Part shown: positions 21,101-62,900 of the stretch, piece by piece
Layout of the letters: each line of letters opens with the position of its first letter
Position numbering within the stretch: position 1 is the stretch's first letter
Source: Notolepis coatsorum
Taxonomy: Eukaryota; Chordata; Actinopteri; Aulopiformes; Paralepididae
Length of the DNA: 64,000 nucleotides
Direction: 5' to 3'
NCBI GenBank assembly: GCA_963971535.1
Contig: OZ020599.1
Location: forward strand, 94,673,897-94,737,896
The notes under the pieces: generated by a model
Database searches by the model: none
Seen by the model: only the letters and a program-made list of their open reading frames with translations
Told to the model about the DNA's origin: nothing
Program-made: the position numbers and the translations under genes

Positions 21101-24100
21101 CAATACTGTTGGACAAATAACAAGAATTAACTCATTTACAAGTTATATTAAGTTTAGCAAATAAGGGAACAGATAAATAACATTTCAATGCAGTCAAAAA
21201 AGCAATATTTAGATTTTAACATTTTGGGGTTTGGTCACGTCGATTCACATATAAGCCGCACCGTTATATAAGCCGCAGGGTCGAAAAATGGGGGAAAAAG
21301 CTGCGGCTTATAGTCCGAAAAGTACGGTATATTTTTTTAAATCAAATCTTTGTATTTATTTTACATGAAACAAGACCGGTAACAATAATAACAATGACGA
21401 GAAGATGACAACAGAGTAAGACAATAAGACGAGACAATTACAGACATGAATTTTTCATTTCTCCATCACTGCAAATCTGCCCCTCAATTAATATCCCCAC
21501 GGGAGGGGGGGGGGGGGGGGGGGGGGGGGCATAATCGCGATATCGACCTAAACGGACAATGTATAACGTATGAAGTGTATCACGGCATACATACTAGCGA
21601 TGTCCGACATTATCGACCTACCGATATTATCGGCCGATATTGGCATTGAAATGTAATATCGGAAATTAACGACGATCAAGACAGGGGAGGGGGGAATTGG
21701 CACTACTAAAATTGGGATTGGAGAAAAACAGAAAAAGAAGGAGAAAAAGTGGATACATTTTTTTATTGTCAAAAGTATGCATAATGTTGTTAATTCCACG
21801 ACAAGAGATATAATGTTAATTACCTGAAATTATTCAGAAATAATTCAATTATTATTTGGGGGGGAAACCCTGCATACCGGTATATCGGTATCGGTTGATA
21901 TCTGTATCGGAAATTAAGAGTTGGACAATATCGGTATATCAGATATTTTTTTCCACAACTGAGGTAGGTAGATACATTTTTTAGAGACTAAAGTACAGAA
22001 AAAAGGTACCGTTGGGTACCGGTATCGATTCACAGGTACCGGTATCAGTTCAAATGTGAACGGTACCCATCCCTAATACTTACTCAATCAGAGCATATAT
22101 TTAGCATTTTTAGATTATATATATATTAGTGCTGTCAGGCGATTAAAAAAAATTAATCTAATTAATTACAGGATTTGTAATTAATTAATCGCATTTTAAT
22201 TGCATAACCATTTTATGCCTGATATTCTATATTCTATAATCATATTTCAAATTGCATGTGTCCAGATGGCAGAATTCAGTACTGTATCTACAAAACCTTC
22301 TGTTTAATCATCTTCCATATATTAATTTGCTTAGATTTTTCAGGTCTGGTCAATTTGAGCATGGTGTTATTCAGTCAAAAATAAAAAAATTATTGATATT
22401 CTCATTTGGTTAATTACAATTGACTCAAAATAAGATTTCCAATCAATCACAGCGCAGATTGATTGATTGAATGAAAATGTTATTAACAGATTGCAGAATG
22501 GGTACAATACAGTACGGCTCAATACACACAATTGTTAAGGGCATGCAGACCAGAGAAAGACTTTCGTCTGGTTTACATCAGGGTCCCCCATTTTCAATTC
22601 ATAATGAATTGTAAGTAAGGGTGCAACTTGCACCGTGCAATCCATTCTTTGTGGATCTAGCCCACAGTATTTCTGACACTGGGAATACATTCCCTGAGAT
22701 TCATAGATGTCCCTAGAATCAGATACCAAGAACATGCAAATGGACCATATTAAAAAAAAGTCTGTAAATGTGTATTCTACATTCTCATGGAATGAATGAG
22801 ATACAAAAAAAAATTATAAAAAAAAGATATAAAAAAAAACCTTTTTTGTAATTAATTTTGAGTTAATTTTCATAACGCGATAATTTGCTGTGTAATTAAT
22901 TAATCTAATTAACATGATAAACTGACAGCACTAATATATATATATATATATATATTAGATTAGATATATATTGTAAATATTTTTATTGTAAGGCAAATAT
23001 AACTCATCATACTCCCATCTGCACCTTGACCTTTTTACACTGCCTACTTGCCCATATGCGCATACTCGGAGTTAATTATATTGTTATATTGTGTAAACAC
23101 TGCCTATTTTTATAAAGATTTTATTTTTACTTCTCCACTGTACTATAATTGTATGACCTGTATCATGTCTTCTACTACATGTACCTCCCCTCCCCCATGC
23201 TGCTATGATGCCTGAATTTCCCCAAGGGGATCAATAAAGGAATATCTTATCTTATAAGGTTGTCCTCCAAATAACCATTTTCTTTGAAGCGTCGGCAGTA
23301 ATTAATTATCATCAAATAATTAACGTGTCGTTCTTCCAGTTTCAATGCGGTGGGTTAAACAAGAGACGCAGGGTAGAATGGCTTTTCTGAAAGTTCATAC
23401 TGTCTTGTCTTAGCTGATTTTCTATTGTTTATTCTTATTTATATATGTATTCTTATGTATGAAATTGCTTATAAACTGTCTTGTCTTGAAAGCTCGTCGT
23501 CGCTGTAAATGGGGCTAACCTTGGTGTATTACGAGTTGAAATATTAAACATAAAATACAACGTATACTGTTTATTTACCCTTCTGTGAAAGTCTAGGGAA
23601 AAAAACGTATCGCAATCTGGTGAAAAATGCCGGAGCTATGGACATTATACAAAAGTAACTGTACTTGCAGTAGATTTCATTCACAGTCTTTGCTGCCCTT
23701 TAATGGGTGCCTGGTGGTACTAAATCCATATTTAACTCTGCCATTGGAAAGAGGAGATTTGACCCAATCCATAGATGTATGACTTGGCCATAATAAGGTA
23801 ATTTATAGGCCTGATATTTTATATTCTATATTAATATTTCAAATAAGATGTGTCCGGATGGCAAAATTCAGGAAGGCCGGTTAGCCTTCGGGAGAGGTGT
23901 TAGTTGGACAATGCCTAGGCTAACCGGCCATGTCCGCTTCCATTCATTGTGCTAAGCTAGGCTAACGTGTAGCCAGATAGCTTTCTACTGAACGCACAGA
24001 GAGGAAACTGGTATCCATCTTCTTGTCTCTCTCTGGAGAAGACGATAAGCTAATTTCCCAAAATGTTGGCGTGTTCTTTTAAGAGGTCAAGGCCTTAAAA

Positions 24101-27100
24101 GGCAATACCAGCTTCTCAAAGTAAACAAAGGCCATCGCTATGGTGACGGGCTGAAGACAACACTCCTCGCTCACCGCCCGCATCTCCCTCTTTAGGCTGA
24201 TGACAAGACAGAGTGGACGGGGGAGATTACACAGTGAATAATGCTTTTGTACGTATAAGCATGTGTGACTGAACATGTAACGATCGAAACAAGAACAAGG
24301 GAGGTCGTTCCAGGGTATTAAAAAGTATCAATTTATGGCCTTAAACGGTATTAAAAAGTCTTACATTTCATTTGCACAGGTATAAAAGTTTTTTGGGGGG
24401 CAAGCCCGGCTGTCGGGAGATGAAATAATATGAAATGTTTTTTTTATCCACTTTTTGCCAATTTTTTTTTTTATATTTTTCTCCCATCCCAATTTCGTAT
24501 CATCCAATTCAACCCTCCCCTGTCACGAACGCTGTTTCTTGCCTCCCACAAGCCGGCTGCAATGTGGACTAAGTCATACATAGCACAAGTCTCCTCCGGT
24601 ACTTGAGGTAACAGCAGTCGCATCTTTTCACCTGCGCAGCTCGATCTCTCAGTGGCGAGGAGTAACGCGTGGGAGGTTCACGCTGCCCCCGACACTTCCT
24701 GATTCCACTGCGCAGGCGCACCAACCGACCTGTAGGAGTCGCTGTCCACAACGCCCGATCCCCACCCATCAGTTTTCCCACCCCCTAATACGGCCAATGT
24801 GTATTAGTACGGACGACCAGCTAAACTGAAAGCAAATGTGCAGCGCTGGGCTCGAACAGGCGAGCCCACTGTCTCCAGATTTCGTGGCGAGCGCCTTGCC
24901 CACTACGCCACGTAGCCGCCTAATATGAAATGTTTTTGTATGCAAGAGCTTGTATTTAAATTGGTGCGCAAGTGCAGCCACCAGTTTAGTGTCGCTATGT
25001 GTTTAATATTTTTTGCTAGTATGGTCGTGAAATTGGTATTCGTTTTTGCTCTTAAAAAGTTTAATTGAGTGCGGCTAAGTGGCGCAGTGGGCAAGGCGCT
25101 CGCCACTAATGCAGGAGATGCTGGGTTCAAGCCCAGCTCTCGGCATTGCTACCAGCTTGGCTAGTCGTTCATACTAACGCAATTGGCAGTATTAGGGGGT
25201 GGGAAGCTGGAGGGTGGGGATCGGACGTTGTGGACAGCGACTCCTACAGGTCGGTTGGTGCGCCTGCGCAGCAGAATCAGGAAGCAACGGGGGGGGCGTG
25301 ACCCTCCCACGCAGACCCTCGCCGCTGAGAGATCTCGCTGTGCAGGTGAAAAGATGCGACGGCTGCCTCCTCGTGTACCGGAGGGGACACGTGATGCAAG
25401 GCTTCATCCACATTGCAGCCGGCCTGTGGGAGGCATGGCCTAACAGCGTTCGAGACAGGGGAGGGTAGAATTGGACAATACGAAATTGGGATGGGAGAAA
25501 AATAGAAAATGGGAGAAAAACTAGATAAAAAAAAATAAAAAGGTGTTTAATTGAGACCCTGTTAAATGATCTGATCTCGCCTCCCCAGACTGTTTCTTAC
25601 GCCCAGTTCCTGTTCCCGACCCACGCCTTGGTGAGGCTGAAAGGGGGCGCCACGGAGAGCTCCACCCCTCTGCCCCGTTTCCGTAGCAACGGCCAGAGGA
25701 CCTTCACCCCGGCCCGTCTGAACAGCACCGTGGCACAGGACGCATGTACGCTTCACTCAAGCAACACACCCACATACACGCGCACACACACACACGCTTC
25801 CATTATCTCCTGATTAGATTCAAATGTAGTGTCACTCATCATACAGTACAACGAAAATAAGTTTGGCATCCGACCAGAGTGCAAATGTAACGGTAAAGTG
25901 CAACAGCAATATACAATGTAGGCTACAGGTGATTAAACTGGGTATAAAATATATAAATTAGTACTACTGTGTATAGTGCTAATCGGATGTATGTACAGAG
26001 TTGTAATATTCATATGTACAGTGATACAGGTACAAAGACAGTATGGTAGTAATAAAAAAAAAGTCATACTGGCCAGCAGCGTAACTAGTAAGAGCAGGTA
26101 AGGTATATGTATAGATATAGTATCTACAGATATGTAAAAAGGATTATATGCAGGTATGTACAGACGGATGTGGATAGATATATATATCTCATTGGATGTG
26201 CCCTGACAATTAATGCTTGTATATCTTATCGTGTGTTGTCATGTTTGTTTATATGTTTGTTTAAAAAATAATAAAAAAATAAAATACAAAAAAATATATA
26301 TATGATGAGAATAAATATATATACAGCATATACAGAGTAATATGGGTAATACACAGGTGAAGAGATAAGTGCATATATATATATATATATGCTGTAAATA
26401 TATATATACGGTATATACAGCACTATTGTACCGGTACATGTTATACAATCTTTTCCTCATGCATTCTGTCTTCGGACCTTAGAACATCACAGTTCATGTT
26501 CTGCTAAGTGCTGTGTATACAGCTTGGGAGCGTCTGAGCCAAAAGCTAAGCAGCATAAACGAGAGTAAAAAAAAAAAAAAGGAAAAAAATAGCAACAGTT
26601 AATCTGAGCAGGATGACACACGCAGTGTTGTCGGTGGGAAAGAGGATCCTCATGTTGAAACCGAGGAGACTGTTTTGTAAATGCAGATCACCAGTGGTTG
26701 TTGAAGGAACACGCCAACTTTTTGGGGAAATTAGCTTATTTGCCATCTATCCTGGAGTTAGACAAGCAGATACAAACCCTTTTCTTCTCTGTGCGTGCAT
26801 TAGGCTTAGGGAACATCCTAGAGTATGTATCTGCTTGTCTAACTCCAGGGTAGAAGGAAAATAAGCGAATTTCCCAAAATGTTGGTGTGTTCCTTTTTAA
26901 GACATATTATGTAAGAACAGATATAATCAAGTCTGGCTGAATTTGCTAAATCGTTCAAAAATATCTAGGATTTCACAACCTTTTTTTTAACTGTAGTGTT
27001 TCTCAAGGGGGGGGCGGCAGAGTTGTTGAAAGGGCGGGGGGGTGTTGATGCTCAAAAGGGGGCGCGATTTTATTTATTATCATTGTTTTTAATATCAGTC

Positions 27101-30100
27101 CTGTGTTTGTTGTGTGCAGGTCCAGAGGAGCTGGCAGAGTACGACCCCAACCTGCTCAGCGACCCCCAGTGGCCCTGTGGGCGACACAAGAGGGTTCTCA
27201 TCTTCGCCTCGTATGTGGTGAGTGTCTGCGCGCGGTGAGTGTCTGCGTGTGGTGAGTGTCTGCGTGTGGTGAGTGTCTGCGTGTGGTGAGTGTCTGCGTG
27301 TGGTGAGTGTCTGCTCGCGGTGAGTGTCTGCGTGTGGTGAGTGTCTGCGTGTGGTGAGTGTCTGCTCGCGGTGAGTGTCTGCGTGTGGTGAGTGTCTGCG
27401 TGTGGTGAGTGTCTGCGTTTGGTGAGTGTCTGCGTGTGGTGAGTGTCTGCGTGTGGTGAGTGTCTGCGTGTGGTGAGTGTCTGCGTGCGGTGAGTGTCTG
27501 CTCGCGGTGAGTGTCTGCGTGTGATGAGTGTCTGCTCGCGGTGAGTGTCTGCTCGCGGTGAGTGTCTGCGTGTGGTGAGTGTCTGCGTGTGGTGAGTGTC
27601 TGCTCGCTGTGAGTGTCTGCGTGTGGTGAGTGTCTGCGTGCGGTGAGTGTCTGCTCGCGGTGAGTGTCTGCGTGTGGTGAGTGTCTGCTCGCGGTGAGTG
27701 TCTGCTCGCGGTGAGTGTCTGCTCGCGGTGAGTGTCTGCGTGTGGTGAGTGTCTGCGTGTGGTGAGTGTCTGCGTGCGGTGAGTGTCTGCTCGCGGTGAG
27801 TGTCTGCTCGCGGTGAGTGTCTGCGTGTGGTGAGTGTCTGCGTGCGGTGAGTGTCTGCTCGCTGTGAGTGTCTGCGTGTGGTGAGTGTCTGCTCGCGGTG
27901 AGTGTCTGCTCGCGGTGAGTGTCTGCTCGCGGTGAGTGTCTGCGTGTGGTGAGTGTCTGCGTGTGGTGAGTGTCTGCGTGTGGCGAGTGTCTGCGTGTGG
28001 CGAGTGTCTGCTCGCGGTGAGTGTCTGCGCGTGGTGAGTGTCTGCATGTGGTGAGTGTCTGCGTGTGGTGAGTGTCTGCGTGTGGTGAGTGTCTGCGTGT
28101 GGTGAGTGTCTGCGTGTGGTGAGTGTCTGCTCGCGGTGAGTGTCTGCTCGCGGTGAGTGTCTGCGTGCGGTGAGTGTCTGCGTGCGGTGAGTGTCTGCGT
28201 GCGGTGAGTGTCTGCGTGTGGTGAGTGTCTGCGTGTGGTGAGTGTCTGCGTGCGGTGAGTGTCTGCTCGCGGTGAGTGTCTGCGCACGGTGAGCGTCTGC
28301 GTGTGATGAGTGTCTGCTCGCGGTGAGTGTCTGCGTGTGGTGAGTGTCTGCGTGTGGTGAGTGTCTGCGTGTGGTGAGTGTCTGCGTGTGGTGAGTGTCT
28401 GCGTGTGGTGAGTGTCTGCGTGTGGTGAGTGTCTGCGTGTGGTGAGTGTCTGCGTGTGGTGAGTGTCTGCGTGTGGTGAGTGTCTGCTCGCGGTGAGTGT
28501 CTGCTCGCGGTGAGTGTCTGCGCGCAGTGAGTGTCTGCGTGTGGTGAGTGTCTGCGTGTGGTGAGTGTCTGCGTGTGGTGAGTGTCTGCTCGCGGTGAGT
28601 GTCTGCGTGTGGTGAGTGTCTGCTCGCGGTGAGTGTCTGCGTGTGGTGAGTGTCTGCGTGTGGTGAGTGTCTGCGTGTGGTGAGTGTCTGCGCGCGGTGA
28701 GTGTCTGCGCACCGTGAGTGTCTGCGTGTGGTGAGTGTCTGCGTGTGGTGAGTGTCTGCGCGCGGTGAGTGTCTGCGTGTGGTGAGTGTCTGCGCGCGGT
28801 GAGTGTCTGCGCGTGGTGAGTGTCTGCGTGTGGTGAGTGTCTGCGCGCGGTGAGTGTCTGCGCGTGGTGAGTGTCTGCGTGTGGTGAGTGTCTGCGTGTG
28901 GTGAGTGTCTGCGTGTGGTGAGTGTCTGCTCGCGGTGAGTGTCTGCGCGCGGTGAGTGTCTGCGCGCGGTGAGTGTCTGCGTGTGGTGAGTGTCTGCTCG
29001 CGGTGAGTGTCTGCGTGTGGTGAGTGTCTGCGCGCGGTGTGTGTCTGCGCGCGGTGAGTGTCTGCGTGTGGTGAGTGTCTGCGTGTGATGAGTGTCTGCG
29101 TGTGGTGAGTGTCTGCGTGTGGTGAGTGTCTGCGCGCGGTGAGTGTCTGCTCGCGGTGAGTGTCTAACCCTGACGGCACCTTCTTCCCAGAAATCACAGT
29201 TGTCTGATTTTTCCTTTGCAGAGCGGAGGGACTGAGAGACCCATGTTACTGACCCCACAGCCCACAGTGACGGCAGTCGGAAGAGTTATTATTTGTGGAG
29301 CTATGTAAAATCTTAAACCTGTAAATCCACGAGGTAGAATTATTACATGACTTTTAATAATTAGAATTGTTATACTGTATCAGTGATGGCCGTCAGAATG
29401 TAGAACTACGTAACTACTTATTTTAACAAAACAATACCATTTACGGCTCCTTTTTAATTTGACTAAATTCATGTGAAATGTCGCAGCCCGGACGAAGTGG
29501 GGCAAAAAAAACAAACACGGTTGTTCTCTTCAGACAATGTTGTTATCTCCGAGTAGATCACAGCGCAAGACTCGCAGGGGGAACAGCAGTACACTGTGTG
29601 CCAAACTATTTACGAGGACAATCTTCTTGTAGCAACAAGTGAGGAATCTACTGACACTAAACAAGGCTTTGTCTTCATGTCCTTGGCAGACGACTATCAT
29701 CGAGTACGTGAAACCGTCGGACCTGAAGAAAGACATGAACGAGACCTTCAGGGAGAAGTTTCCCCACATCAAGCTGACATTCACCAAGATAAGAAGGTTC
29801 TGATCTTCTCTCTTCAAAACGTCCCTCTTGAGAATCTTAGACCTTTTTATTACCATTTTTATCTGTTCATAAAGGGCAAAGGTTGAACCCAGGGTATCTT
29901 CAGTTAGATTTAAGACCTTTTTAAGATGACTTAGAGCTAGATTTAATACCAATTTCACGACCATTCTAGCAAAAGAAGAAAAAAAACACACACACTGGTG
30001 GCTGCACTTCCAGACTCCCGGTAGTCCAGCAAAAAAACAACGACTTGAATACAAAAACATTTCATATATTTCATATTATTTCATCTCCTGACAGCCGGGC

Positions 30101-33100
30101 TGCCCCCCCAAAAAAAACGTTTATACCTGTGCAAATGAAATGTAAGACTTTTTTTTAAATACTTTTTAAGGCCTTAAATTGATAATTATGAATTTAAATA
30201 CTTTTTAATACCCTGCAGATACCCTGGAACCACCTTCCTTGTTTGGATCGTTACATACTCGTACGTAAACAAAAGCATTATTCACTGTGTAATCTCCCCC
30301 GTCCACTCTGTCTTGTCATCAGCCTAAAGAGGGAGATGCGGGCGGTGAGCGAGGAGTGTTGTCTTCAGCCCGTCACCACAGCGATGGCCTTTGTTTACTT
30401 CGAGAAGCTGGTGCTGCAGGGTCGCTTCAACAAGCAGAACAGGAAGCTGGTGGCGGCGGCCTGCGTGCTGCTGGCGGCCAAGATCAGCAGTGACCTGCGG
30501 AAACCAGAAGTGAGACAGCTGATAGACGTGAGTAAACCAGAAGTGAGACAAGCTGATAGACGTGAGTAAACCAGAAGTGAGACAAGCTGATAGACGTGAG
30601 TAAACCAGAAGTGAGACAAGCTGATAGACGTGAGTAAACCAGAAGTGAGACAAGCTGATAGACGTGAGTAAACCAGAAGTGAGACAAGCTGATAGATGTT
30701 AGTATAACAGAAGTGAGACAAGCTGATATATGTTAGTATAACAGAAGTGAGACAAGCTGATAGATGTTAGTATAACAGAAGTGAGACAAGCTGATAGATG
30801 TTAGTAAACCAGAAGTGAGACGGCTGATAGACGTGAGTAAACCAGAAGTGAGACAAGCTGATAGACGTGAGTAAACCAGAAGTGAGACAAGCTGATAGAC
30901 GTGAGTAAACCAGAAGTGAGACAAGCTGATAGACGTGAGTAAACCAGAAGTGAGACAAGCTGATAGACGTGAGTAAACCAGAAGTGAGACAAGCTGATAG
31001 ACGTGAGTAAACCAGAAGTGAGACGGCTGATAGACGTGAGTAAACCAGAAGTGAGACAAGCTGATAGACGTGAGTAAACCAGAAGTGAGACAAGCTGATA
31101 GACGTGAGTAAACCAGAAGTGAGACAAGCTGATAGACGTGAGTAAACCAGAAGTGAGACAAGCTGATAGATGTTAGTATAACAGAAGTGAGACGGCTGAT
31201 AGACGTGAGTAAACCAGAAGTGAGACAGCTGATAGACGTGAGTAAACCAGAAGTGAGACAAGCTGATAGATGTTAGTAAACCAGAAGTGAGACGGCTGAT
31301 AGACGTGAGTAAACCAGAAGTGAGACAAGCTGATAGACGTGAGTAAACCAGAAGTGAGACGGCTGATAGACGTGAGTAAACCAGAAGTGAGACGGCTGAT
31401 AGACGTGAGTAAACCAGAAGTAAGACAAGCTGATAGATGTGAGTAAACCAGAAGTGAGACGGCTGATAGACGTGAGTAAACCAGAAGTGAGACAAGCTGA
31501 TAGACGTGAGTAAACCAGAAGTGAGACGGCTGATAGACGTGAGTAAACCAGAAGTGAGACAAGCTGATAGATGTTAGTATAACAGAAGTGAGACGGCTGA
31601 TAGACGTGAGTAAACCAGAAGTGAGACAAGCTGATAGACGTGAGTAAACCAGAAGTGAGACAAGCTGATAGATGTTAGTATAACAGAAGTGAGACAAGCT
31701 GATAGACGTGAGTAAACCAGAAGTGAGACAAGCTGATAGATGTTAGTAAACCAGAAGTGAGACAAGCTGATAGACGTGAGTAAACCAGAAGTGAGACAAG
31801 CTGATAGACGTGAGTAAACCAGAAGTTAGACGGCTGATAGACGTGAGTAAACCAGAAGTGAGACGGCTGATAGACGTGAGTAAACCAGAAGTTAGACGGC
31901 TGATAGACGTGAGTAAACCAGAAGTGAGACAAGCTGATAGACGTGAGTAAACCAGAAGTTAGACAGCTGATAGACGTGAATGATTTCTCCGCTCAGAGCA
32001 ACACGCATCCTGCTGCTAGCTACATCTTGAATGAATGAATGAATGAAAGATTTGTATTTTTATTAGATTTTTTTATTAAGTATAAAAACAAAAATGTATC
32101 TGTTCATTTGACATATACAAAAGATAATAAAAAAACACAACAAAAAGAGAAACGGATAAACAAAAAAAAGGAGGAAGAAGTATACACTTTTTTAAACTCC
32201 TACCCCTTTTAAACTATCACACATTATATAGTTTTATTCTATTGTTAATTTTATGTATAAACGCTGTATCTCTACAATCCAATACATATTATATACATCA
32301 TTTCTTCTATTTTTTATTTACATCTTACTTCATCTTCACTTACTGTATATCATAGATTTGGGTTTTAAATTGTTTCAAAATAACATCGGGACTGTGGCTG
32401 TCGTAAACGAAAAGGTGCTTTTCTTCTAATATGACATTGACACCAACTTTTTTAAGATGTGGGGTGTGATGTTAACCCTTTCACTGCCATACTACCAAAT
32501 GGTTAACCCTTTCACTGCGACAATACAAAAGGTTAACCCTTTCACTGCCACACGACAAAGGGTTAATAGTAGAAAGACATAGATATAGGCAATAAAATGG
32601 CACAATGGAGGGGGTGCATAAATTCACATAAAGACTTCATCCACAATACATTTTGAGAACATAGATAATAAAGCCACAGATGTCTCTCTTAACACAATAC
32701 AAATCCAGCTACGTCTCTCTCATATTCACGATGCCTACTGTTTGTATGTAATACCTGAGCAGTGAAAATGACTTCATATCTATTTTGGATATTTCAGCAC
32801 CATGGACAGAGAGTGGGGGGTCTGATTATCAGTTACTCAAGTTTGCGTAACTTGTCAGAAAATAAAGAATTTCATTGAATTACATAATTTCGAGTAGGTA
32901 TTGGAACCGAGGGGTATTCCAACAAGTCTCTTCTCTCACACCGAGTAAGCCTGTTAATGACCTAATGACTAATTCTTAACGATTCACAGTCCAGTCCGCG
33001 TTCTTATAGTCCTCATAGGCACAGTAGTCTATACTTGTAGTCTAAAAGGTACGGACATCGCATCAGATGGTTGTTAATAGCTGCTACTGTTTTATCATAA

Positions 33101-34541
33101 CTGAACCAGCAGCAATATCAACAACTGATTGTGTGCACTCTTGTCATGTGTGTCTGACCACAACGTATGACGTACAGTATATCGTGCCAGTTAGGGTACC
33201 TTGTGTATACTGTTTACTTTTACTCATAGTATACATTCAGATTCAAATTCTTTATTGCCTATATTTATTGTAACATATAATATAACCGATAAGGCATACA
33301 GACCCTCATCTGCACCTTTTTATTTACAGTTTATTTTTCTAATATTTTCATATTCGGAATTAATTATATTGTTTACACTGTATATTTTTTCTCATTATTA
33401 TATGCTGATCTAATTTTATTGCCTATATTTACTTATTTCTACTATTACCCTGCCCATAGCTGTACCTCCTCTCCCCCCTCCTGCTATGCTGCCCAAATTC
33501 CCCTCAATAAAGGAATATCTTATCTTATCTCTAGGACACAGCGAAAGCACACAAGCTCCTGTTGCCTTTGTAGCCTGGCTGCCTTGAAACTTTGAAATAA
33601 ATGGGTGGAGAACAAAAACAAAGGGATGATATATAAAAAAAAATATTCCCTTACAATCAATGGCAGCTTTATTTAACGGTCAGAATCTTGGCAACACACT
33701 TCATACAAGTGGTCGTGGTTTTTATTGATTAAAAATAAATAAATAAATATATATATTACACACACACACACACACCATGAAGCCATGGTATCAGCTGCCA
33801 TACCCAATTGATACCCCTGGTTTCCTGGGTCTTATGGTCATCAAGGAACCTGTCACAATGTAGCCTTCATATCGTTATATTGTGCTGATTAGCCTGACCA
33901 TATCTCACGTGTAAACAGAGCCTGTTTTTGGCATAGGCAGTATAGGAAAATGCTAAGGGCGCCACCACCCAGAGGGGACACAACAAATAAAAAATAAAAA
34001 AAAAGGTTTCCCATTTAAAGATTTTTTACTAATACTACTAGTTAACACTGTTCTTTCTAAATATGAAATAACCCCACAACAACCAGCGTAACTCTATAGC
34101 ACATAGACAAATAATAAATAATAATAATTTCTTAGTTAATGTCACCCCACCCCTCTCCAGCCAGGCAAATAGACTTGACCTCCGCTCCCCCTCTCTGAGC
34201 AATGGTAAAGTGTGGCTATCTGACGTGACCCTCACATTATATGCTATGAAAACAAAAGTGTGAGTGCATGTTATTGGTAGTGAATAAACTGCTGCAAGGG
34301 GGAGCCAGATAAAATCCTGCCTAGGGCACCCAATTGGTCAGAGCCGGCCCTGCGTGTAAACGTGTGTTCTGTGTCTTTCTTTTCTTCCATGGTTGAGCAG
34401 AAACTGGAGGAGCGTTTTCGCATTAACCGGCGAGAGTTGATTCCCTTGGAGTTCCAAGTGCTGGTTGCCTTGGAGATGGGGCTCTACCTCCCGGACAGCA
34501 AGGTCATGCCACACTACCGCAGACTCGTGCAGCAGGGCTAA
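2610..34541 (+). CDS. cables2: cables2-like gene: CDK5 and ABL1 enzyme substrate, nine coding exons
   Basis: CABLES proteins are adaptors linking cyclin-dependent kinases to Abl/Src-type tyrosine kinases and carry a C-terminal cyclin-like fold. Coding exons: 2610-3148, 5337-5429, 17135-17212, 17421-17520, 25589-25745, 27120-27217, 29690-29796, 30323-30527 and 34401-34541. They sum to 1518 nt with matching phases (505 residues plus stop); CABLES2 is usually a little under 500 residues. Landmarks in order are [87 protein letters not shown] and [20 protein letters not shown], ending [11 protein letters not shown]. The cyclin-like region spans roughly residues 345-505. The choice of cables2 over cables1 rests on the convergent adrm1 neighbour and on length. 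Two donor sites (exons 6 and 8) are embedded in minisatellites. Confidence 0.93.
3149..5336 (+). other. cables2 intron 1
   Basis: The intron runs from a GTGAGC donor to an acceptor after 'tataatttccgcttag'. It includes a TTAA-flanked MITE at 3877-4021, G and C homopolymers near 4493-4507, 4597-4605 and 4720-4732, and a (GT)n tract near 3543. Nothing coding is recognised. Confidence 0.6.
3877..4021. mobile_element. Short TTAA MITE built of repeated 'ttaaccctttcactgcc' blocks (copy 1)
   Basis: TTAACCCTTTCACTG opens the element and CAGTGAAAGGGTTAA closes it; the block also recurs inside in both orientations. Related copies are at 14252-14467 and 32472-32566. The TTAA ends suggest a piggyBac-type target, but the block is so short and reiterated that the class is uncertain. 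Confidence 0.65.
5337..5429 (+). CDS. cables2: cables2 exon 2
   Basis: The exon has 93 nt and preserves phase 2. It encodes [18 protein letters not shown] followed by [12 protein letters not shown], matching the CABLES segment that precedes the CAKRSL block. The acceptor has a long pyrimidine tract and the donor is AG|GTGAGT. The exon is too short to appear as an isolated open frame, so it was found by translating between splice sites. Confidence 0.9.
5430..7040 (+). other. cables2 intron 2, proximal part: repeat debris
   Basis: A LINE-type 3' tail ends at 6073 with 'ggggatcaataaaggaata', a signature repeated at 17640-17675 (reverse), 23225-23256 and 33505-33530. The rest, including a G run at 6910-6924 and the 'accggtatcgaac' motifs, resembles remnants of hAT-type MITEs. 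No gene is recognised. Confidence 0.5.
7041..7570. mobile_element. MITE with TACCGTAATTCCTCTAATAG inverted ends
   Basis: The left end TACCGTAATTCCTCTAATAG is mirrored by the right end, which closes CTATTAGAGGAATTACGGTA. The interior repeats motifs such as 'ccggcttgtattaggagg'. No transposase is present. The superfamily is not decided from sequence alone. Confidence 0.75.
7611..8350. repeat. 47-bp minisatellite, about 16 units
   Basis: The unit contains 'ttgggcttcttctaaacac' followed by 'gcctctacctgacgagcag' and 'ttaaacc'. Variants have one or two extra 'ttc' or 'g' insertions and C/A differences (acctgac against aactgac). The array begins about 40 bp after the MITE at 7041-7570, within cables2 intron 2. 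Confidence 0.9.
8699..8935. repeat. Tandem repeat of about 80 bp, three units separated by poly-C
   Basis: Three units contain 'caccaacattactccat' and 'cagacggtcacatgtgtgct', joined by C runs of about 14 nt. The open frames across it are repeat artefacts. A separate G run lies at 8450-8463. Confidence 0.85.
9251..9600. mobile_element. Inverted, degraded copy of the 13770-14115 element end
   Basis: From 'gttcccaccacgccggact' onward this segment matches the reverse complement of 14115 downward, through 'tttcactctgggtgaaag', 'ttaggaacaaaaagttctcc' and 'caccacagagttttattt', reaching into the region of the open frame that starts at 13837. It could be the left terminal repeat of one element about 4.9 kb long, or the end of a second, deleted copy in the opposite orientation. 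Confidence 0.75.
10036..10516 (-). mobile_element. tRNA-derived SINE, copy 1 (minus)
   Basis: Read on the minus strand, the tRNA-like head is 'ggtggtgtagtgggcaaggc' with a B-box-like 'gttcgaatccagc', followed by a body shared with the copies at 24443, 25070 and 54283. The tail is A-rich ('gggagaaaaagtggatc'). The 17-bp target duplication TCAATAAGTTACTCATT lies at 10019-10035 and 10517-10533. Total length is about 480 bp, long for a SINE. Confidence 0.93.
10620..12490 (-). pseudogene. LINE fragment with a restriction-like endonuclease-type C-terminus, split by a hAT element
   Basis: Minus-strand frames from 12490 down to 11977 and from 10922 down to about 10640 belong together once the 10931-11968 insertion is removed. 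Visible motifs are [22 protein letters not shown] and [13 protein letters not shown], then [10 protein letters not shown] and PVEVGSR, continuing after the gap with [17 protein letters not shown]. This pattern is typical of the C-terminus of fish retrotransposons with a restriction-enzyme-like endonuclease, in which RPD and the later acidic residue are candidate catalytic positions. Only the C-terminal part is present; no reverse transcriptase motif is visible. The family name is not certain. Confidence 0.75.
10931..11968. mobile_element. hAT-type non-autonomous element with 8-bp target duplication
   Basis: The ends are CAGGGGTCAGCAACCTTTTT and, inverted, the terminal 'agggttgcctacccctg'. An exact 8-bp duplication, CTCTAGAT, flanks it at 10923-10930 and 11969-11976, which is diagnostic of hAT-like insertion. 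It interrupts a LINE coding frame. It has no recognisable transposase. G runs and AT-rich sequence fill the interior. Confidence 0.93.
12490..12720 (-). mobile_element. LINE 3' tail fragment
   Basis: The phrases 'caagtttgtttattatttat', 'atgaaatgcttgtttctgta' and 'ctgagagtgtgctt' recur, in the same orientation, at 61605-61700, where they follow a recognisable LINE C-terminal coding region. It is therefore the 3' end of the same LINE family. Confidence 0.7.
12840..14115 (-). pseudogene. Remnant of an element encoding a CXC (tesmin/TSO1-like) cysteine-rich tail
   Basis: On the minus strand an N-terminal part starts at 13837 ([20 protein letters not shown], then PPCKVCKK). It reads with frame changes through 'FHATCYRRF' and '[13 protein letters not shown]' to '[13 protein letters not shown]', where a GTATGA donor-like site lies near 13257. 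After about 240 bp an acceptor (gttaacag) near 12997 leads to [21 protein letters not shown], a Cys-rich block resembling the CXC tail of large transposon-like proteins of fish, with an acidic end ([10 protein letters not shown]) at 12840. The long middle of such proteins is missing and there are frame disruptions, so this looks like an internally deleted copy. The outer end is repeated inverted at 9251. Confidence 0.65.
14252..14467. mobile_element. Short TTAA MITE (copy 2)
   Basis: It contains six 'ttaaccctttcactacc'-type blocks and a closing inverted block ending GAAAGGGTTAA. The family is the same as at 3877-4021 and 32472-32566, here expanded by internal duplication. Confidence 0.65.
15090..16480 (-). 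mobile_element. LINE 3'-region fragment hosting a minisatellite
   Basis: The flanks 'gagagtgttccagagggcag' and 'agcatagttctggacatac' are typical of reverse-complemented C-terminal coding sequence of fish LINEs, and a related fragment lies at 46923-47399. The array at 15195-16285 expanded inside it. A similar fragment continues at 16480-16880 ('gatgctgttccagaggtcag'). Confidence 0.6.
15195..16285. repeat. Minisatellite of 32-36-bp units, about 33 copies
   Basis: The unit is 'gaggctgtggaggaggtcag' followed by 'aggagcctacga'. Longer units contain an extra 'gtag', and some lack one 'gag'. Because 32 is not a multiple of three, all three plus frames stay open and give repetitive Arg/Glu-rich frames of up to 228 residues that are not genes. 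Confidence 0.93.
17135..17212 (+). CDS. cables2: cables2 exon 3
   Basis: The exon has 78 nt and keeps phase 2. It encodes [20 protein letters not shown] then ERLHH, a strongly conserved CABLES block. The acceptor is 'ctgtgtcctgcag' and the donor AG|GTACAA. Confidence 0.93.
17421..17520 (+). CDS. cables2: cables2 exon 4
   Basis: The exon has 100 nt, entering in phase 2 and leaving in phase 0. It encodes [16 protein letters not shown] and then [12 protein letters not shown]; the family carries a similar 'ELEGVELGADGK' here. The donor is AAG|GTAAGT. The intron upstream is only 208 bp and contains a C-rich tract at 17271-17300. Confidence 0.92.
17640..18600. mobile_element. LINE 3' tail (minus) interrupted by a hAT element
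   Basis: The tail signature 'gatattcctttattgatccc' opens the segment and tail-like sequence resumes after 18489, so the hAT element at 17889-18481 inserted into it. Related tails are at 22980-23256 and 33240-33535. Confidence 0.7.
17889..18481. mobile_element. hAT MITE, family A (copy 1)
   Basis: It begins TAGTGCTGTCAGGCGATTAA and ends CTGACAGCCCTA. An exact 8-bp target duplication, GTTACAAT, lies at 17881-17888 and 18482-18489. The interior includes 'gtgtccggatggcagaattc' and an A run at 18375-18393. A second copy is at 22127-22933. Confidence 0.92.
18600..20956. other. cables2 intron 4, repeat-derived sequence without genes
   Basis: A LINE-like tail resembling 32040-32350 occurs near 19220-19400. 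A C run lies at 20179-20202. A hAT-like end 'cagtggtcatcaacctttt' begins at 20644 but I could not find its partner end. No coding exon is recognised. Confidence 0.5.
20957..21329. mobile_element. MITE with TACCGTACTTTTCG-type inverted ends
   Basis: It opens 'taccgtacttttcgcactat' and closes 'atagtccgaaaagtacggta'. 'Ataagccgca' is repeated internally in the same orientation. This is a common type of fish palindromic MITE. No coding sequence is present. Confidence 0.8.
21595..21960. mobile_element. Degraded MITE with a SINE-tail fragment inside
   Basis: 'Gatgtccgacattatcgacc' and 'atcggccgatattggcattg' recur at 45917-46252 in the opposite orientation. The segment 21681-21757 ('gacaggggagggggg' to 'gagaaaaagtggataca') matches the tail of the SINE family seen at 10036 and elsewhere. 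A G run of about 24 nt lies just outside at 21506-21529. Confidence 0.65.
22127..22933. mobile_element. hAT MITE, family A (copy 2) with an internal insertion
   Basis: It begins TAGTGCTGTCAGGCGATTAA and ends CTGACAGCACTA, flanked by ATATATAT on both sides, a less informative duplication because the site is AT-repetitive. Relative to copy 1 it has about 210 bp extra at roughly 22430-22665, beginning near 'gattgattgattgaatg'. Confidence 0.85.
22980..23256 (+). mobile_element. LINE 3' tail
   Basis: It ends with 'ccccaaggggatcaataaag' and 'gaatatcttatcttat', the terminal signature shared with 6040-6073 and 33505-33530. No coding remains. Confidence 0.7.
24443..24921 (-). mobile_element. tRNA-derived SINE, copy 2 (minus)
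   Basis: Same family as 10036-10516. The exact target duplication AATATGAAATGTTTTT is at 24427-24442 and 24922-24937. The site lies within the duplicated intron 7 sequence, so this insertion came after the duplication. Confidence 0.93.
25070..25544 (+). mobile_element. tRNA-derived SINE, copy 3 (plus)
   Basis: The head is 'gcggctaagtggcgcagtgg' (A box) with 'gggttcaagcccagc' (B box). The target duplication GTTTAATTGAG is at 25059-25069 and 25545-25555. It lies in inverted orientation to copy 2, only about 150 bp away. Confidence 0.93.
25589..25745 (+). CDS. cables2: cables2 exon 5
   Basis: The exon has 157 nt, entering in phase 0 and leaving in phase 1. It encodes [18 protein letters not shown] followed by a Ser/Thr/Pro/Arg-rich linker, as in the family (VVSYAKFLYPTNALV-like). 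The acceptor is 'gatctcgcctccccag'. The donor follows GACGCAT|GTACGC; it is not a strong consensus, but only this junction restores the frame into exon 6. Confidence 0.88.
25845..26200. repeat. Dispersed repeat, family R1
   Basis: Phrases such as 'ccagagtgcaaatgtaac', 'aagtgcaacagcaatataca' and 'gtatagtgctaatc' recur at 42255-42420 and 42575-42740, at 45235-45330, and reversed at 56720-56912 and 58914-59095. No coding is visible. AT-rich simple repeats follow to about 26420. Confidence 0.75.
26705..26900. mobile_element. MITE with 'ggaacacgccaac' inverted ends
   Basis: The left end 'aggaacacgccaactttttg' mirrors the right end 'caaaatgttggtgtgttcct'. Inside, 'ctggagttagacaagcagat' is mirrored by 'atctgcttgtctaactccag'. 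A partial copy of the end is at about 24045-24082, directly abutting the inverted exon 8 copy. Confidence 0.75.
27120..27217 (+). CDS. cables2: cables2 exon 6
   Basis: The exon has 98 nt, entering in phase 1 and leaving in phase 0. It encodes [20 protein letters not shown] followed by [12 protein letters not shown], the most conserved CABLES segment before the cyclin-like domain. The acceptor is 'tttgttgtgtgcag'. The donor GTG|GTGAGT at 27218 is the first of a long series of identical donor-like sites in the following minisatellite. Confidence 0.95.
27211..29165. repeat. 17-bp minisatellite, about 115 units, seeded on the exon 6 donor
   Basis: The unit is GTGAGTGTCTGCGTGTG with variants CTCGCG and CGCGCG in the second half. 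The first unit is the real exon 6 donor and its flanks, so each unit repeats the motif (G)TG|GTGAGT. Because 17 is not divisible by three, all three minus frames stay open and produce 405-, 686- and 700-residue '[14 protein letters not shown]' frames that are not proteins. Confidence 0.96.
29690..29796 (+). CDS. cables2: cables2 exon 7
   Basis: The exon has 107 nt, entering in phase 0 and leaving in phase 2. It encodes [20 protein letters not shown] then [15 protein letters not shown], matching the family closely. The acceptor is 'catgtccttggcag'. The donor AAG|GTTCTG is weak, but the junction to exon 8 (KIR-S-LKREM) fits the family exactly. Confidence 0.93.
30323..30527 (+). CDS. cables2: cables2 exon 8 (cyclin-like domain)
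   Basis: The exon has 205 nt, entering in phase 2 and leaving in phase 0. It encodes [40 protein letters not shown] and [18 protein letters not shown], then KPEVRQLID. It forms the helical core of the cyclin-like domain. The donor GAC|GTGAGT at 30528 and the preceding 27 exon bases are the repeat unit of the following minisatellite. A partial inverted copy of this exon lies at 24107-24196. Confidence 0.95.
30501..31978. repeat. 33/34-bp minisatellite, about 44 units, seeded on the exon 8 donor
   Basis: Each unit carries the last 27-28 exon bases (encoding KPEVRQLID in the true exon) followed by GTGAGT. Unit length alternates between 34 ('gagacaagctgatag') and 33 ('gagacggctgatag') with T/C variants ('gatagatgttagtata'). 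The first unit is real exon and donor. Minus frames reading '[11 protein letters not shown]' are artefacts. Confidence 0.96.
31979..34400 (+). other. cables2 intron 8 after the minisatellite
   Basis: It contains a LINE-like tail (32040-32350), a short TTAA MITE (32472-32566), a LINE 3' tail ending 'caataaaggaatatcttatc' (33240-33535), a (CA)n tract near 33758 and AT-rich sequence. No gene is recognised. It ends at the exon 9 acceptor 'catggttgagcag'. Confidence 0.6.
32472..32566. mobile_element. Short TTAA MITE (copy 3)
   Basis: Three direct 'ttaaccctttcactgc' blocks lie between TTAA ends. The right end GACAAAGGGTTAA is a shortened inverted block. Same family as 3877 and 14252. Confidence 0.6.
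34401..34541 (+). CDS. cables2: cables2 exon 9 (C-terminus, stop)
   Basis: The exon has 141 nt in phase 0 including TAA at 34539. It encodes [35 protein letters not shown] and [11 protein letters not shown], matching the CABLES C-terminus (MPHYRRLV) and completing the cyclin-like domain. Confidence 0.95.
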   Translation, partial: KLEERFRINRRELIPLEFQVLVALEMGLYLPDSKVMPHYRRLVQQG

Positions 34542-42700: not shown

Positions 42701-45700
42701 GGGATTATATGCAGGTATGTACAGCCATGTGGATATATATAATTTATATATACGGTAAGAATAAACCATTCTTTATTCATTACCAGAGATTGACTCCGTC
42801 TTTAACTAGCTTTGTGTTTGTAGGTGTATACGGTGTGTGTGTTTTCCCTTACTAAAAGCCATTTACACTACCATTGATGTTTTAAAAAAAAAAGGGGGGG
42901 GGGGTGTTACTCAGTGAGAGAGTTGTTTGTCGGTCGCTAGGCTAGGCGTAGGTAATGCACTCTTGTGAAAGCCACTGGGGTCGTCTATTTTTGGCAAGCG
43001 CGAACATTACTGTATTCTCCACTACAAGCCCTTCTTAATCCCCACGGCAAACTTTCGGTGTCAGTTTATCGGGGTGCGCTGTTCTTAATCCCTGATGCTC
43101 CAGATTGTTGCATGGATTTGAATGACTTGTAGTAGTGTAATATAGTAAGAAAAAAAACACCAGTCACATATTAAACTGGTATGGTCCTTAAAAATGTTGT
43201 TTTCTCCCTATATAAAGCTGCCAGTCGCCAGATGTGAAAGAGGGGAGTGTATCTTCTAACAATGCAACATAACACGGTCCCTGTGTGAATGTCTGCGTGG
43301 GCGAGCAACACTGACCTCCTTTGTTAGCGGCGTCCACAGCCTCTGCAGGCAAGCCAAACTGGTTCATTAGAGGCCCCAGCTGACCTGAGGCCAGGGCACT
43401 GCTGAACATGCTCATAGCCTGCAAGGAGACAAACGGGTGCATTAGAGGCCCCAGCTGACCTGAGGCCAGGGCACTGCTGAACATGCTCATAGCACTTTCT
43501 TTGAGCTCCATTAGTGAAACGATGCGGCTTTATAGCATAACGGTCCCATATTGCAACGTGGTTGTAGATCTAATAATAACGCATTATCAAAACATAGGTC
43601 ATAAAAAAAATAAACATTCTGACTTGGCATCCTCGCTATGCCACATTTCCCCACCTGGACATTCACTATTATGTTTATCTGTGTGTAGCAACCTAAAACT
43701 AAGAGGTAATGACTTTCTGGGACTTGGATCGTCTTCAACATGGTTTATATCGGTTTGTTTTGTCGTAAAGTAGTAGATTGTGAATAAACGTCTCCTAAAC
43801 CGCTGTTTATTCTCTAAGGTGTTTTCCCCTAAACAGGAGACATGAGTGGATGACGTGCTGCTACACTGGGTCTTGTTTTGTTGGTTTGTTGTTGCTGTAA
43901 ACAAGGGTAACGTCAGTGTCTCAGGAGTTGAAATAAAGGTTTGAAAGTAGAGGATGAACACAGATCATAGAACATATATATATATATATTAGGGCTGGCC
44001 CGAAATTTGCCGATAGTCGACTGGTAATTATACTTTTTTTAATCATTCCATTTGGGCTGTGGGGGGTGCTTAATGTCTGAAGGAATCGACTGAAGGCTTC
44101 TTGTCCTCTGAGAAAGCATGCAATTGATCCACTGATGGATACATCTTGATATTTGTCTAGTCTAGTGTGTTCATTAGACGGGTGAAATCCTCTTTCAGTG
44201 CCTCTGTGCCCATTTTCTTAGGCAGTTAGCCTCACTGGTATGCGCACCATTAGCGTCAGCCACGCGTCTAGGCCTCTTTGCTTTTGGAAAGAATGATAAA
44301 AAATAAAAATATAATAAAAAATGTTTGCATTCGACTAAGAGGTTGGCAGTCAACTACGGCTCCTTTCGATCAATTAGTCGACTAATCGGGGTCAGCCCTA
44401 ATACATATATATATATATACAGTATGGGGTTTACCTGCTGAAACTGTGGGGAGCTGAGCGTGTTGTGGAGCTCCTCAGGGCTCTGAGGCAGGGACTCTCC
44501 GGAGGGCAGGAAGGGCACCAGCCTCTGCTGCACCTCAGCGTTGGCCAGGATGGGAGCCATGATCTCCGGTGTCAGAACGCCGGCCAGGTCCACTGCAGCA
44601 GACGGAGACAAAGAGTTGGCACAGCCGCCAGACGTGCTCGAGCAGCACAAAGATGGTATTCGGTTTCAACACCGCTCGGCCCGCTTGTTGTTTAAAACCT
44701 GCTCCACTGCCAAAGAAGGAAGATCAAAGCATACTAGTATAATAATAACCCACACAGTCGGGACCTCGGATGAACCCTAGTTCCTTTGTGCACTGGTTAG
44801 AGGTGGTCCGCCACACAGAGGGCTTTGTTCTCCTGGTTTAGTTGCAGGACCTTCAGATTCACAACATGGGGCTACGACGCTACGTCCCATTGTCTGCCGT
44901 CAACTAAAAACTAAGGCTGAGACCACTTATCCATTTATCGATAACTGTGTGAAATCGATAAGTGGCGTCACTTATCGATTTTTTTGCATGTGTACACAGT
45001 TTAAAAATACCTTTTAAAAGAAAAAAAACCTATTTAACGTCTGTGTGTGATAATAATATTTTCTATTTTATTTAAATATATACTGTATATATATATATAT
45101 ATTTATCGATAATTTTGTCCCGATTTATCGATTCTTCCAAATGGCATATCGTCTCAGCCTTACTAAAAACACACTTCTTCAATCTGAAATGAAAAATTAA
45201 ATAAAAATATTAACCGTCGTACTGTCTTTTACTATTAAAGTGCTAATCAGATGTATGTACAGAGTTGTAGTATTAATATGTACACTGTACAGTGAGTGTA
45301 TATATATAGACTGTAGCACTCAAGTAAATGTATGTCTTGTGTTGGAAGTTTGTGGTTGTAGTTTGTTTTTGTGATGGATGTTTATCCTCTTCTTGCCCCG
45401 TCGTGAACAAGTCATGTTTCTATTTGGACCGGACCTTTAAAATAAAGAATGCTACAGTCCCTGCATATCTGGTCAGTTCTTTTAGTCGGGTGAGTGAGAC
45501 TCGCACAGACTCCACGAGAGGCAGCCAGACGGATATAATTCCACACATGTTCAAGAGTTCTATGGGGCAAAACTCATTTTTGTATACGGCAGGAGTTCTA
45601 TGGAACCAATGACCCACCTCTTGCAAAGCACTGGCTACGGAGAGAGGCTTTAAGACGGCTTTGAAACAGTGTCTGCCTCTATGGGATTCTCATAGAAGCA

Positions 45701-59981: not shown

Positions 59982-62900
59982 ACATCAGCTTGAGGGACTC
60001 CAGCAAGCTGAACAAGCTGGTGAAGAAGGCTAGCTCCGTAGTGGGTGGTGAGCTGGATAATCTAGAGGTGGTGGCTGAGAGGATGAGGAAAAAGCTAGAA
60101 GCCATCCTGGAGAAGCCCTCTCACACCCTCTTATGAGGAGCTAGCCAGAATGAAGAGCACGTTCAGCCAAAGACTCATCCCCCCCGACACACCACAAACC
60201 GCCTGGGCCGGTCCTTTATACCGGCAGTCATCAGGCTCTACAAACAAGGGCTCGGACGGCCGGCTCTGCTGCCAGAACTATGTCAGAACTCAGGACTTGA
60301 GAACTAGAGACTCATATCACTGGACTATCTTGTATTTGTACTTTTTTATATTATATTGTATTTGTATTTTATATTTTATATTGTATCTATAGTGTATATA
60401 GATACTGGACTGTATATGAATGTGAAGCTCTGTATCCCTCTCCCCATGCTGCTTTGACACCCGAATTATCTTATTTACAGGAACACAGACTGGAATTTAG
60501 GTAACTTAAAAGGTTACTTATTTATAAATGGTCAATGGACTATATTATTTATCCAAAGCGCTTTACAACTTGTCTTGCCCAAGGGCACTTCAACACGCTG
60601 CCAGGAGGAGCTGGAATCGAACCCTGGGAACCTTCCGATTACCAGACGAGCCACTGTTATACTGTGGGAACAAAGCTCTTACTGAAACAAGCCTTGGGGA
60701 ACAGATTCACTAGAGATGGTAATCACAACAACTCATGGTTATATTTCGTAGTGGCTCCCACTCTGCTCACTATTGGAACATTCCCTGTCACATTCTAATA
60801 GTGAGCAGAGTGGGAGCCACTACTCATATAACTAGGGTTATAGGATAACCTTCGTTATATTTCATAGTGGCTCCCACTCTGCTCACTATTGGAACCTTTC
60901 CCTGTCACATTCTAATAGTGAGCAGAGTGGGAGCCACTACTCATATAACTAGGGTTATAGGATAACCTTCGTTATGTAAGGTACTGATAGGAGGAGGAGG
61001 GGGAGTCGTCTCTGGAGGAGGAGGAGGAGGTACCTGGTGGAGGAGCTGCTGGCTGCAGAAGCACTGCTTCCCAGGAGGCTGGCAAGGCCCGGCCCGGCCA
61101 GAGCACCGAGACCACCTGCAGAGAGAGGGGTGACAGGTTATTCTCCTGGTTCTGAGAGACCACCTGCAGAGGGGGGACATCATGTTATTCTCCTGGTTCT
61201 GAGCGACCCGTGACCCACCCGCGATGGCCCGCCTCGCCTGCCCATTTCAAACCTTTACTTCAACACTGAGGTTACCCAGAACAAGCTACCGGTAGTTAGG
61301 ATAGTCCTGCAGCTCCCCACTCGTACACATTTAGACCAGCCCCACTTCAACAGCCTAGAGTGGCTCAGGGTGGACAAAAGAGTATCAATGATGAAATTAT
61401 GCCTAGTCTATATGATTTATAAAGGGGAGGTGCCAAGTTACCTATACAATTACTTCCAATATGTCAAAAATAATCACAGCCATGAAACCAGAGGTAGAGA
61501 CACAAACATAGTCCCTTTTAGATTTAAACTTATTTCGTACGGCCAGCAGACCTTCCTTTATTCAGCTGCAGTACTGTGGAATAGCCTGCCCAGCAGCATT
61601 AAGTTCAAGTTTCAATTTTCTTTATTAGTTGTCATACAGAAATACAGAATACTTTTATATGAAATGCTTCTTTCTGTTATGCTCCTGAGAGTGTGCTAGA
61701 TAAAAATAGATAAGTATAAAATAAGTATAAAATAGAAAGTCAAGTACGTAAACAAGTGTAAACAAAACAAAAGTGTTCAATATACATATATACAATACAG
61801 AGTAGATAAAAAGTAACTGAGTTACAATACAATATACAGTACAATGCAGAAATGGGATGAGGTACAACTTAGGGTAAGGTGCAATGAGCTATGAGTTGTA
61901 GTGCAAATCTCTTTACCAATAAATATAAAGTGTGTTAAAGTGTCTAAAGTGGGTAAAGTGGGTGCTACAGTGAGTTGTTTATTTAAAGTGAGTGTGTACG
62001 TGTGGATGTGTGTGCTGTGAGTGTATTTGATGGTTTGTCACATAGTGTTATTGTCATTGAGCATCCTTATGGCCTGGGGATAGAAGCTCCTTCTGAGTCT
62101 CTCTGTGCTTGCCATGAGACTCCGGTATCGCTTGCCTGACCGCAGCAGTTCAAAGAGGCAGTTGTTTGGGTGGCTAGAGTCTTTTATTATTCTATTAAAT
62201 AGGCCCCTAGGTTAACTGGCTTCAAAAAGTCTGTACGAACATGGCTATCGGTATAGGAAAGAGGGTAGCATATTTATTATTCTTCTATACTGTAGTGTAG
62301 ATGCATATTGTCTCTTAATGTTTTATGATGATGTCGCTCTCTAAGTCAAGCTCTCTAAGTCTCTCTCTCTAAGTCTCGCTCTCTAAGTCACGCTCTCTAA
62401 GTCACGCTCTCTAAGTCACGCTCTCTAAGTCTCGCTCTCTAAATCTCTCTCTCTAAGTCTCGCTCTCTAAGTCTCGCTCTCTAAGTCACGCTCTCCAAGT
62501 CTCGCTCTCTAAGTCACGCTCTCTAAGTCTCGCTCTCTAAGTCACGCTCTCTAAGTCTCTCTCTAAGTCTCTCTCTCTAAGTCTCGCTCTCTAAGTCTCG
62601 CTCTCTAAGTCACGCTCTCTAAGTCATGCTCTCTAAGTCTCTCTCTCTAAGTCTCGCTCTCTAAGTCTCGCTCTCTAAGTCACGCTCTCTAAGTCACGCT
62701 CTCTAAGTCACGCTCTCCAAGTCACGCTCTCTAAGTCTCGCTCTCTAAAGGCGTGTTTGAGATTGGTGAAGCAGGCGCAGATCTGCACAGTTTTTACTAC
62801 CGCCTTGCCAAGCGCGTTGCATGACGGTTAGAATGTTGTCCGACTTGCTCTGGAAATCTGACTAGGCGAGCCGCGGAAATCTCACTGGAGCGAGCCACGC

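Follow-up and report, generated by a model that had tools for sequence, protein, structure and literature searches.

Tandem arrays of 5′ splice sites at the ends of cables2 exons 6 and 8 in a bony fish

The cables2 gene described here carries two tandem arrays, each of which begins inside a coding exon and repeats the junction between that exon and the following intron. Array 1 starts at the end of exon 6 and array 2 at the end of exon 8. We suggest, with a probability of about 0.75, that both are exon/intron-boundary minisatellites, i.e. neutral duplications of the junctions, in which the first donor is mostly used under exon definition. The analysis covered a stretch of 64,000 nt (the window, G000:C44:94673897-94737896) from a 3.42-Gb assembly of 4787 contigs.

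Results

Gene model of cables2

Nine exons, located with tblastn of orthologues, join into an uninterrupted spliced reading frame of 505 aa, and its C-terminal 182 aa match Pfam Cyclin_N. Among the best 120 of 330 homologues, the top scores belong to the CDK5 and ABL1 enzyme substrate 2 proteins from Centroberyx and Polymixia (66-67% identity), which makes an acanthomorph fish the probable source. The exons of the window's cables2 copy occupy one place among 14 matches.

Exon 6 (27120..27217, plus strand, 98 nt) ends with TCGTATGTG and is flanked by intron 5 of 1374 nt and intron 6 of 2472 nt. Its donor had been placed at 27217|27218 by an earlier, sequence-only reading of this DNA, and the placement is borne out by the intact nine-exon model and by the homologues, since 79 of the 84 alignments that span the exon 6/7 joint are gapless (among the best 120 of 330). 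The acceptor of intron 6 belongs to exon 7 (29690..29796, plus strand). Exon 8 (30323..30527, plus strand), the final 27 nt of which (30501-30527) are the exonic portion of the array 2 unit, finds its acceptor partner in exon 9 (34401..34541, plus strand). Exons 7, 8 and 9 all rest on tblastn and the spliced frame. Most of the read-through insertions that homologues show at exon 8/9 begin at the same residue (best 120 of 330).

Two further features of the gene were observed. The exon 7 donor (29796/29797) reads AAG|GTTCTG and has a very low weight-matrix score of -0.11; at this position the paralog carries AAG|GTAAGT. A partial copy of exon 8 with its flanks lies inverted in intron 4 (24082-24327, minus strand).

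The array at exon 6

Array 1 spans 27214..29165 on the plus strand (TRF period 17, 114.8 copies, 91% matches, 0% indels). Counted in register from 27218, the assembled array holds 114 full units and one partial unit, hence 115 donor positions, in agreement with the roughly 115 tandem copies reported earlier. Unit 1 covers the final 4 nt of exon 6. The earlier description of the unit as the junction itself holds in that the unit spans the junction; however, only these 4 exonic nt (TGTG) are shared with the exon, and the other 13 nt are intronic. Likewise, the statement that GTGAGTGTCTGC recurs in every later unit goes slightly too far: the donor core GTGAGT is intact in 107 of the 114 full units and differs in seven. 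With the partial unit included, GTGAGT is intact at 108 of 115 donor positions, and 110 of them start with GT. The segment GTCTGC is invariant (114/114). The units fall into 17 variants in irregular order.

A search of the whole 3.42-Gb assembly with a pattern of two neighbouring 17-mers returned 101 matches on the forward strand, and the window alone accounts for 101, from 27218 to 29122. The exact two-unit pattern is thus restricted to array 1. On the reverse strand the pattern had no match in the whole assembly, and neither had the reversed-pattern control. An array of this kind cannot be chance. The contig that carries it is 112.9 Mb long.

Just 3′ of array 1, at 29166..29190 (plus strand), a stretch read by eye resembles a branch point, a pyrimidine tract and an AG (AACCCTGACGGCACCTTCTTCCCAG), a likeness that may be due to chance. 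On the minus strand all three frames are open over the array (27070-29285; 697, 716 and 695 aa) because the 17-bp unit has no stops on that strand.

The array at exon 8

Array 2 (30501..31979, plus strand; TRF 43.9 copies) was not mentioned in the sequence-only reading and is a stronger case of a junction repeat than array 1. As the unit table shows, its 33/34-bp unit consists of the final 27 nt of exon 8 followed by the 7 intronic nt GTGAGTA. With 27 coding bases in the unit, its origin from the exon is evident. The 44 donor positions have the context GACGTGAGT in 33 cases, GATGTTAGT in eight and others in three. Both arrays therefore have the composition of a boundary minisatellite, a tandem unit that takes in sequence from both sides of a real exon/intron boundary, array 1 on 4 exonic nt only. 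The copies of both also carry splice signals, with GTGAGT at 34 of 44 positions in array 2 in addition to those counted above for array 1.

Strength and conservation of the donors

The sequence-only reading had described near-equal donor-like sites that begin at the exon junction, and the unit table and the donor scores agree with it. With the same weight matrix, the scores of 103 of the 115 sites of array 1 equal or exceed that of donor 1, and the predicted pairing energy with U1 is about -11 kcal/mol at 104 of 115. Over the first 35 donors no predicted structure favours donor 1: its unpaired value is 0.39, and the 34 that follow average 0.39. As predicted strength and predicted structure are near-equal, position is left as the difference in favour of donor 1.

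The donor half of the array 1 unit has 7 mismatches in 684 cells and the other half 0 in 684 (Fisher P = 0.015), a small comparison of units that are not independent. With more mismatches in the donor half there is no sign that later donors are being kept. In this sequence comparison we found no evidence for a function of the array, the donor bases being kept no better than the rest, and the arrays are probably without function. Long blocks are not duplicated within array 1 beyond what shuffles give (longest repeated run 8, P = 0.18). Identical units lie side by side slightly more often than shuffling predicts (41 versus 33.7, P = 0.03).

Reading frames from later donors

Read on from exon 6, intron 6 gives GTG AGT GTC TGC GCG CGG TGA, which places an in-frame TGA at nt 19-21 beyond the exon, where unit 2 begins. 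With donor 2 the frame shifts and runs into a stop 36 nt beyond the end of exon 6, and use of donors 3 onward includes the TGA. The earlier expectation that the frame would be kept at multiples of three units is thus not upheld, because this early TGA leaves no open frames under that rule. In the spliced-frame test one of the 110 GT-bearing positions of array 1 is productive, namely the first. The same is true of array 2 (1/44, the first), where the frame from donor 2 ends at nt 57 in a stop codon and use of donors 3 onward brings in the TAA of nt 39.

The sequence consequently excludes a ladder of complete proteins at both exons, and the arrays lack the complete frames from alternative sites that characterize productive tandem alternative donors. 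Under the usual rule of nonsense-mediated decay (NMD), most mRNAs with such premature termination are NMD targets. Transcripts from later donors are accordingly predicted to be mostly NMD targets; those from donors 2 and 3 of array 2 may escape, because their stop falls within the last exon or too close to it. A ladder of nonproductive RNAs is a possible outcome, judged from these frames.

Junction repeats elsewhere in the window and the genome

The cables2 paralog (C44:28.76 Mb) has seven copies of its exon 6 end with the donor, spaced 59 to 108 bp apart (TRF period 82). Each copy includes about 29 exonic bases; the first four retain GTAAGAA, and the far three are without it. This unit differs from the array 1 unit, which suggests that the two arrays arose independently at the same junction. 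The end of exon 7 in the paralog has one degenerate second copy. The paralog also shows an extra intron within the exon that matches exon 8 (L026 reverse complement, about 4430-5251), with AACAG on each side and a 56-bp x4.2 repeat near its end, possibly a case of intron gain. In a third gene, on C30, which we read as cables1-like from its matches, no copies were present at the three donors tested.

Two acceptors are duplicated in adrm1, a gene identified by an RPN13_C match and by solved ADRM1 structures, and the sequence-only reading had neither. Both were found with TRF on the minus strand: an exon start with its acceptor at 43355..43493 (75-bp unit x1.9) and the acceptor ..CTCTCTGCAG|GTGGTCTC at 61108..61208 (47-bp unit x2.1). 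Among the myosin loci, one gene has eight GTGAGTACAG donors from an exon end, spaced by 32 and then six times by 37, and in another the exon end and donor lie in a twofold 61-bp copy. A myosin head in a long open frame without introns (L028, C8:142268398-142270422) looks like a retrocopy.

Junctions are not enriched in repeats. Repeats make up 9360 of the 64000 bases of the window and 9190 of 95814 in 29 myosin loci, some of them overlapping. From a set of 16 cables2 and 8 adrm1 junctions, not counting the parts of adrm1 around 63.7 kb and 39.7 kb, 4 of 24 lie in repeats, and rotated maps reach at least four in 47% of 20000 trials (P = 0.47). An ungapped test for downstream copies of donors, from which 6 of 116 myosin and 1 of 4 cables2b donors were dropped for low complexity or proximity to an end, gave 0/110 for myosin, 1/8 for cables2a, 0/4 for adrm1, 1/3 for cables2b and 0/3 for the cables1-like gene. 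Random positions in the same test gave 52/424 and 25/523. The test undercounts, as it misses array 1 with its 4 shared exonic nt and the cases at loci L038 and L047; even with these added, donors show no enrichment over random positions. Such junction arrays would be expected of a repeat-rich genome at places where duplication is nearly harmless. TRF also lists more large minisatellites in the window that are tied to no known exon (7611-8347, 15249-16209, 57568-58480 and 62334-62748).

Discussion

Comparison with known systems

The cables2 arrays look like a large vertebrate case of the junction repeats known from lancelets and one human gene. The human minisatellite, in IFI6 (6-16), has a 12-bp unit in about 26 copies. 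It provides multiple splice donors at one exon, and two downstream units are reported to be used, giving three mRNA species (PMC4526556). The cables2 arrays resemble it as minisatellites that multiply donors at one exon; however, usage in IFI6 is known from RNA, and for cables2 it is a prediction from sequence.

In amphioxus, exon/intron-boundary minisatellites called mirages are described in Adh3, the globins BflGb6 and BflGb9, TnC and PGBD5, and regular splicing is reportedly undisturbed, with no aberrant mRNA (PMC3087553, PMC3902484). Their reported units measure 10-160 bp, with 3 or 6 copies in two BflGb6 haplotypes, whereas the fish has about 115 and about 44 copies in two arrays of one gene. 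The mirage literature examined yielded no natural case with more than 100 donors, and to argue from a few copies to 115 is thus an extrapolation. Among the titles and abstract openings listed in a literature search, no fish array of such size appeared either, which does not show that none exists. Intron gain by tandem duplication is described as beginning with duplication around AG/GT sites (PMC3087553). The cables2 arrays share this kind of duplication, but no new intron is seen at either of them; the origin of an intron within a former exon was rejected here, since exons 6 and 8 have the same ends in the paralog and in the cables1-like gene, and since the read-through insertions of homologues at exon 8/9 mostly begin at one residue.

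Proposed origin and donor choice

We suggest that array 1 grew by tandem duplication of a short stretch across the exon 6 junction (4 exonic nt, 13 intronic nt) and by repeat turnover, and that the stretch of 27 exonic and 7 intronic nt at exon 8 would have undergone a separate expansion. Every copy except the first would then be intronic. A short exon 6 between two much longer introns is a layout that favours exon definition. Recognition across the exon would favour donor 1, and this preference may be the reason why the arrays are tolerated. Donor 1 is probably used in most transcripts, since at equal strength the donor nearest to the exon's own acceptor should win. Hence, of the two alternatives offered earlier, choice of the first site by position or a ladder of isoforms, we consider the former likelier. 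Our best reading is that donor 1 is mostly used, with some leakage possible. Any transcripts spliced from a later donor would carry a frameshift or a premature stop, and NMD is the predicted fate of most of them.

Alternative explanations

A first alternative is a ladder of RNAs. On such an account many donors are used, the mRNAs differ by 17 nt, all but the first are nonproductive, and array length tunes the loss to decay. The near-equal donor scores, the stops reached from later donors and the two downstream units used in IFI6 (PMC4526556) are in line with it. So is the upstream preference of just 60% reported for near-equal natural donor pairs (PMC9225289), and together with the IFI6 case it suggests that leakage may be substantial. 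However, in the minigenes of Carranza and colleagues, with two identical 5′ splice sites and flanking introns of 365 nt, only the upstream site was used under exon definition (PMC9225289), and the amphioxus mirages reportedly produce no aberrant mRNA (PMC3087553, PMC3902484). We therefore regard the ladder as unlikely. Still less probable is that the arrays act as length-tunable rheostats, in which each added donor slightly raises the decaying share, so that array length in introns 6 and 8 would set cables2 output and vary between individuals.

A selected array, with donor cores kept so that many U1 sites in intron 6 prevent early polyadenylation or hold the intron, would fit the retention of GTGAGT at most positions. 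We consider it very improbable, since the non-donor half is conserved at least as well, the copies in the cables2 paralog decay with distance, and neither junctions in repeats nor donors in nearby copies are enriched. A short array inflated or misplaced during assembly is another alternative; collapse or inflation could also give rise to the slight excess of neighbouring identical units. Against such an artefact stand the 17 variants in irregular order, a longest repeated run that does not exceed those of shuffles, the length of the contig and the presence in this genome of several more junction arrays built from different units, and we give it hardly any weight.

Implications

With neutral junction duplication as the preferred reading, array 1 is a natural experiment on how one 5′ splice site is picked among many equals. 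Its more than 100 sites, 17 nt apart, are near-identical in predicted strength and structure and differ mainly in position, so that the fall of use with distance could be read from them. The arrays extend mirages to a bony fish and to high copy numbers, two cables2 paralogs each having an array of its own at the same junction, and they bear on intron growth and exon survival in repeat-rich genomes.
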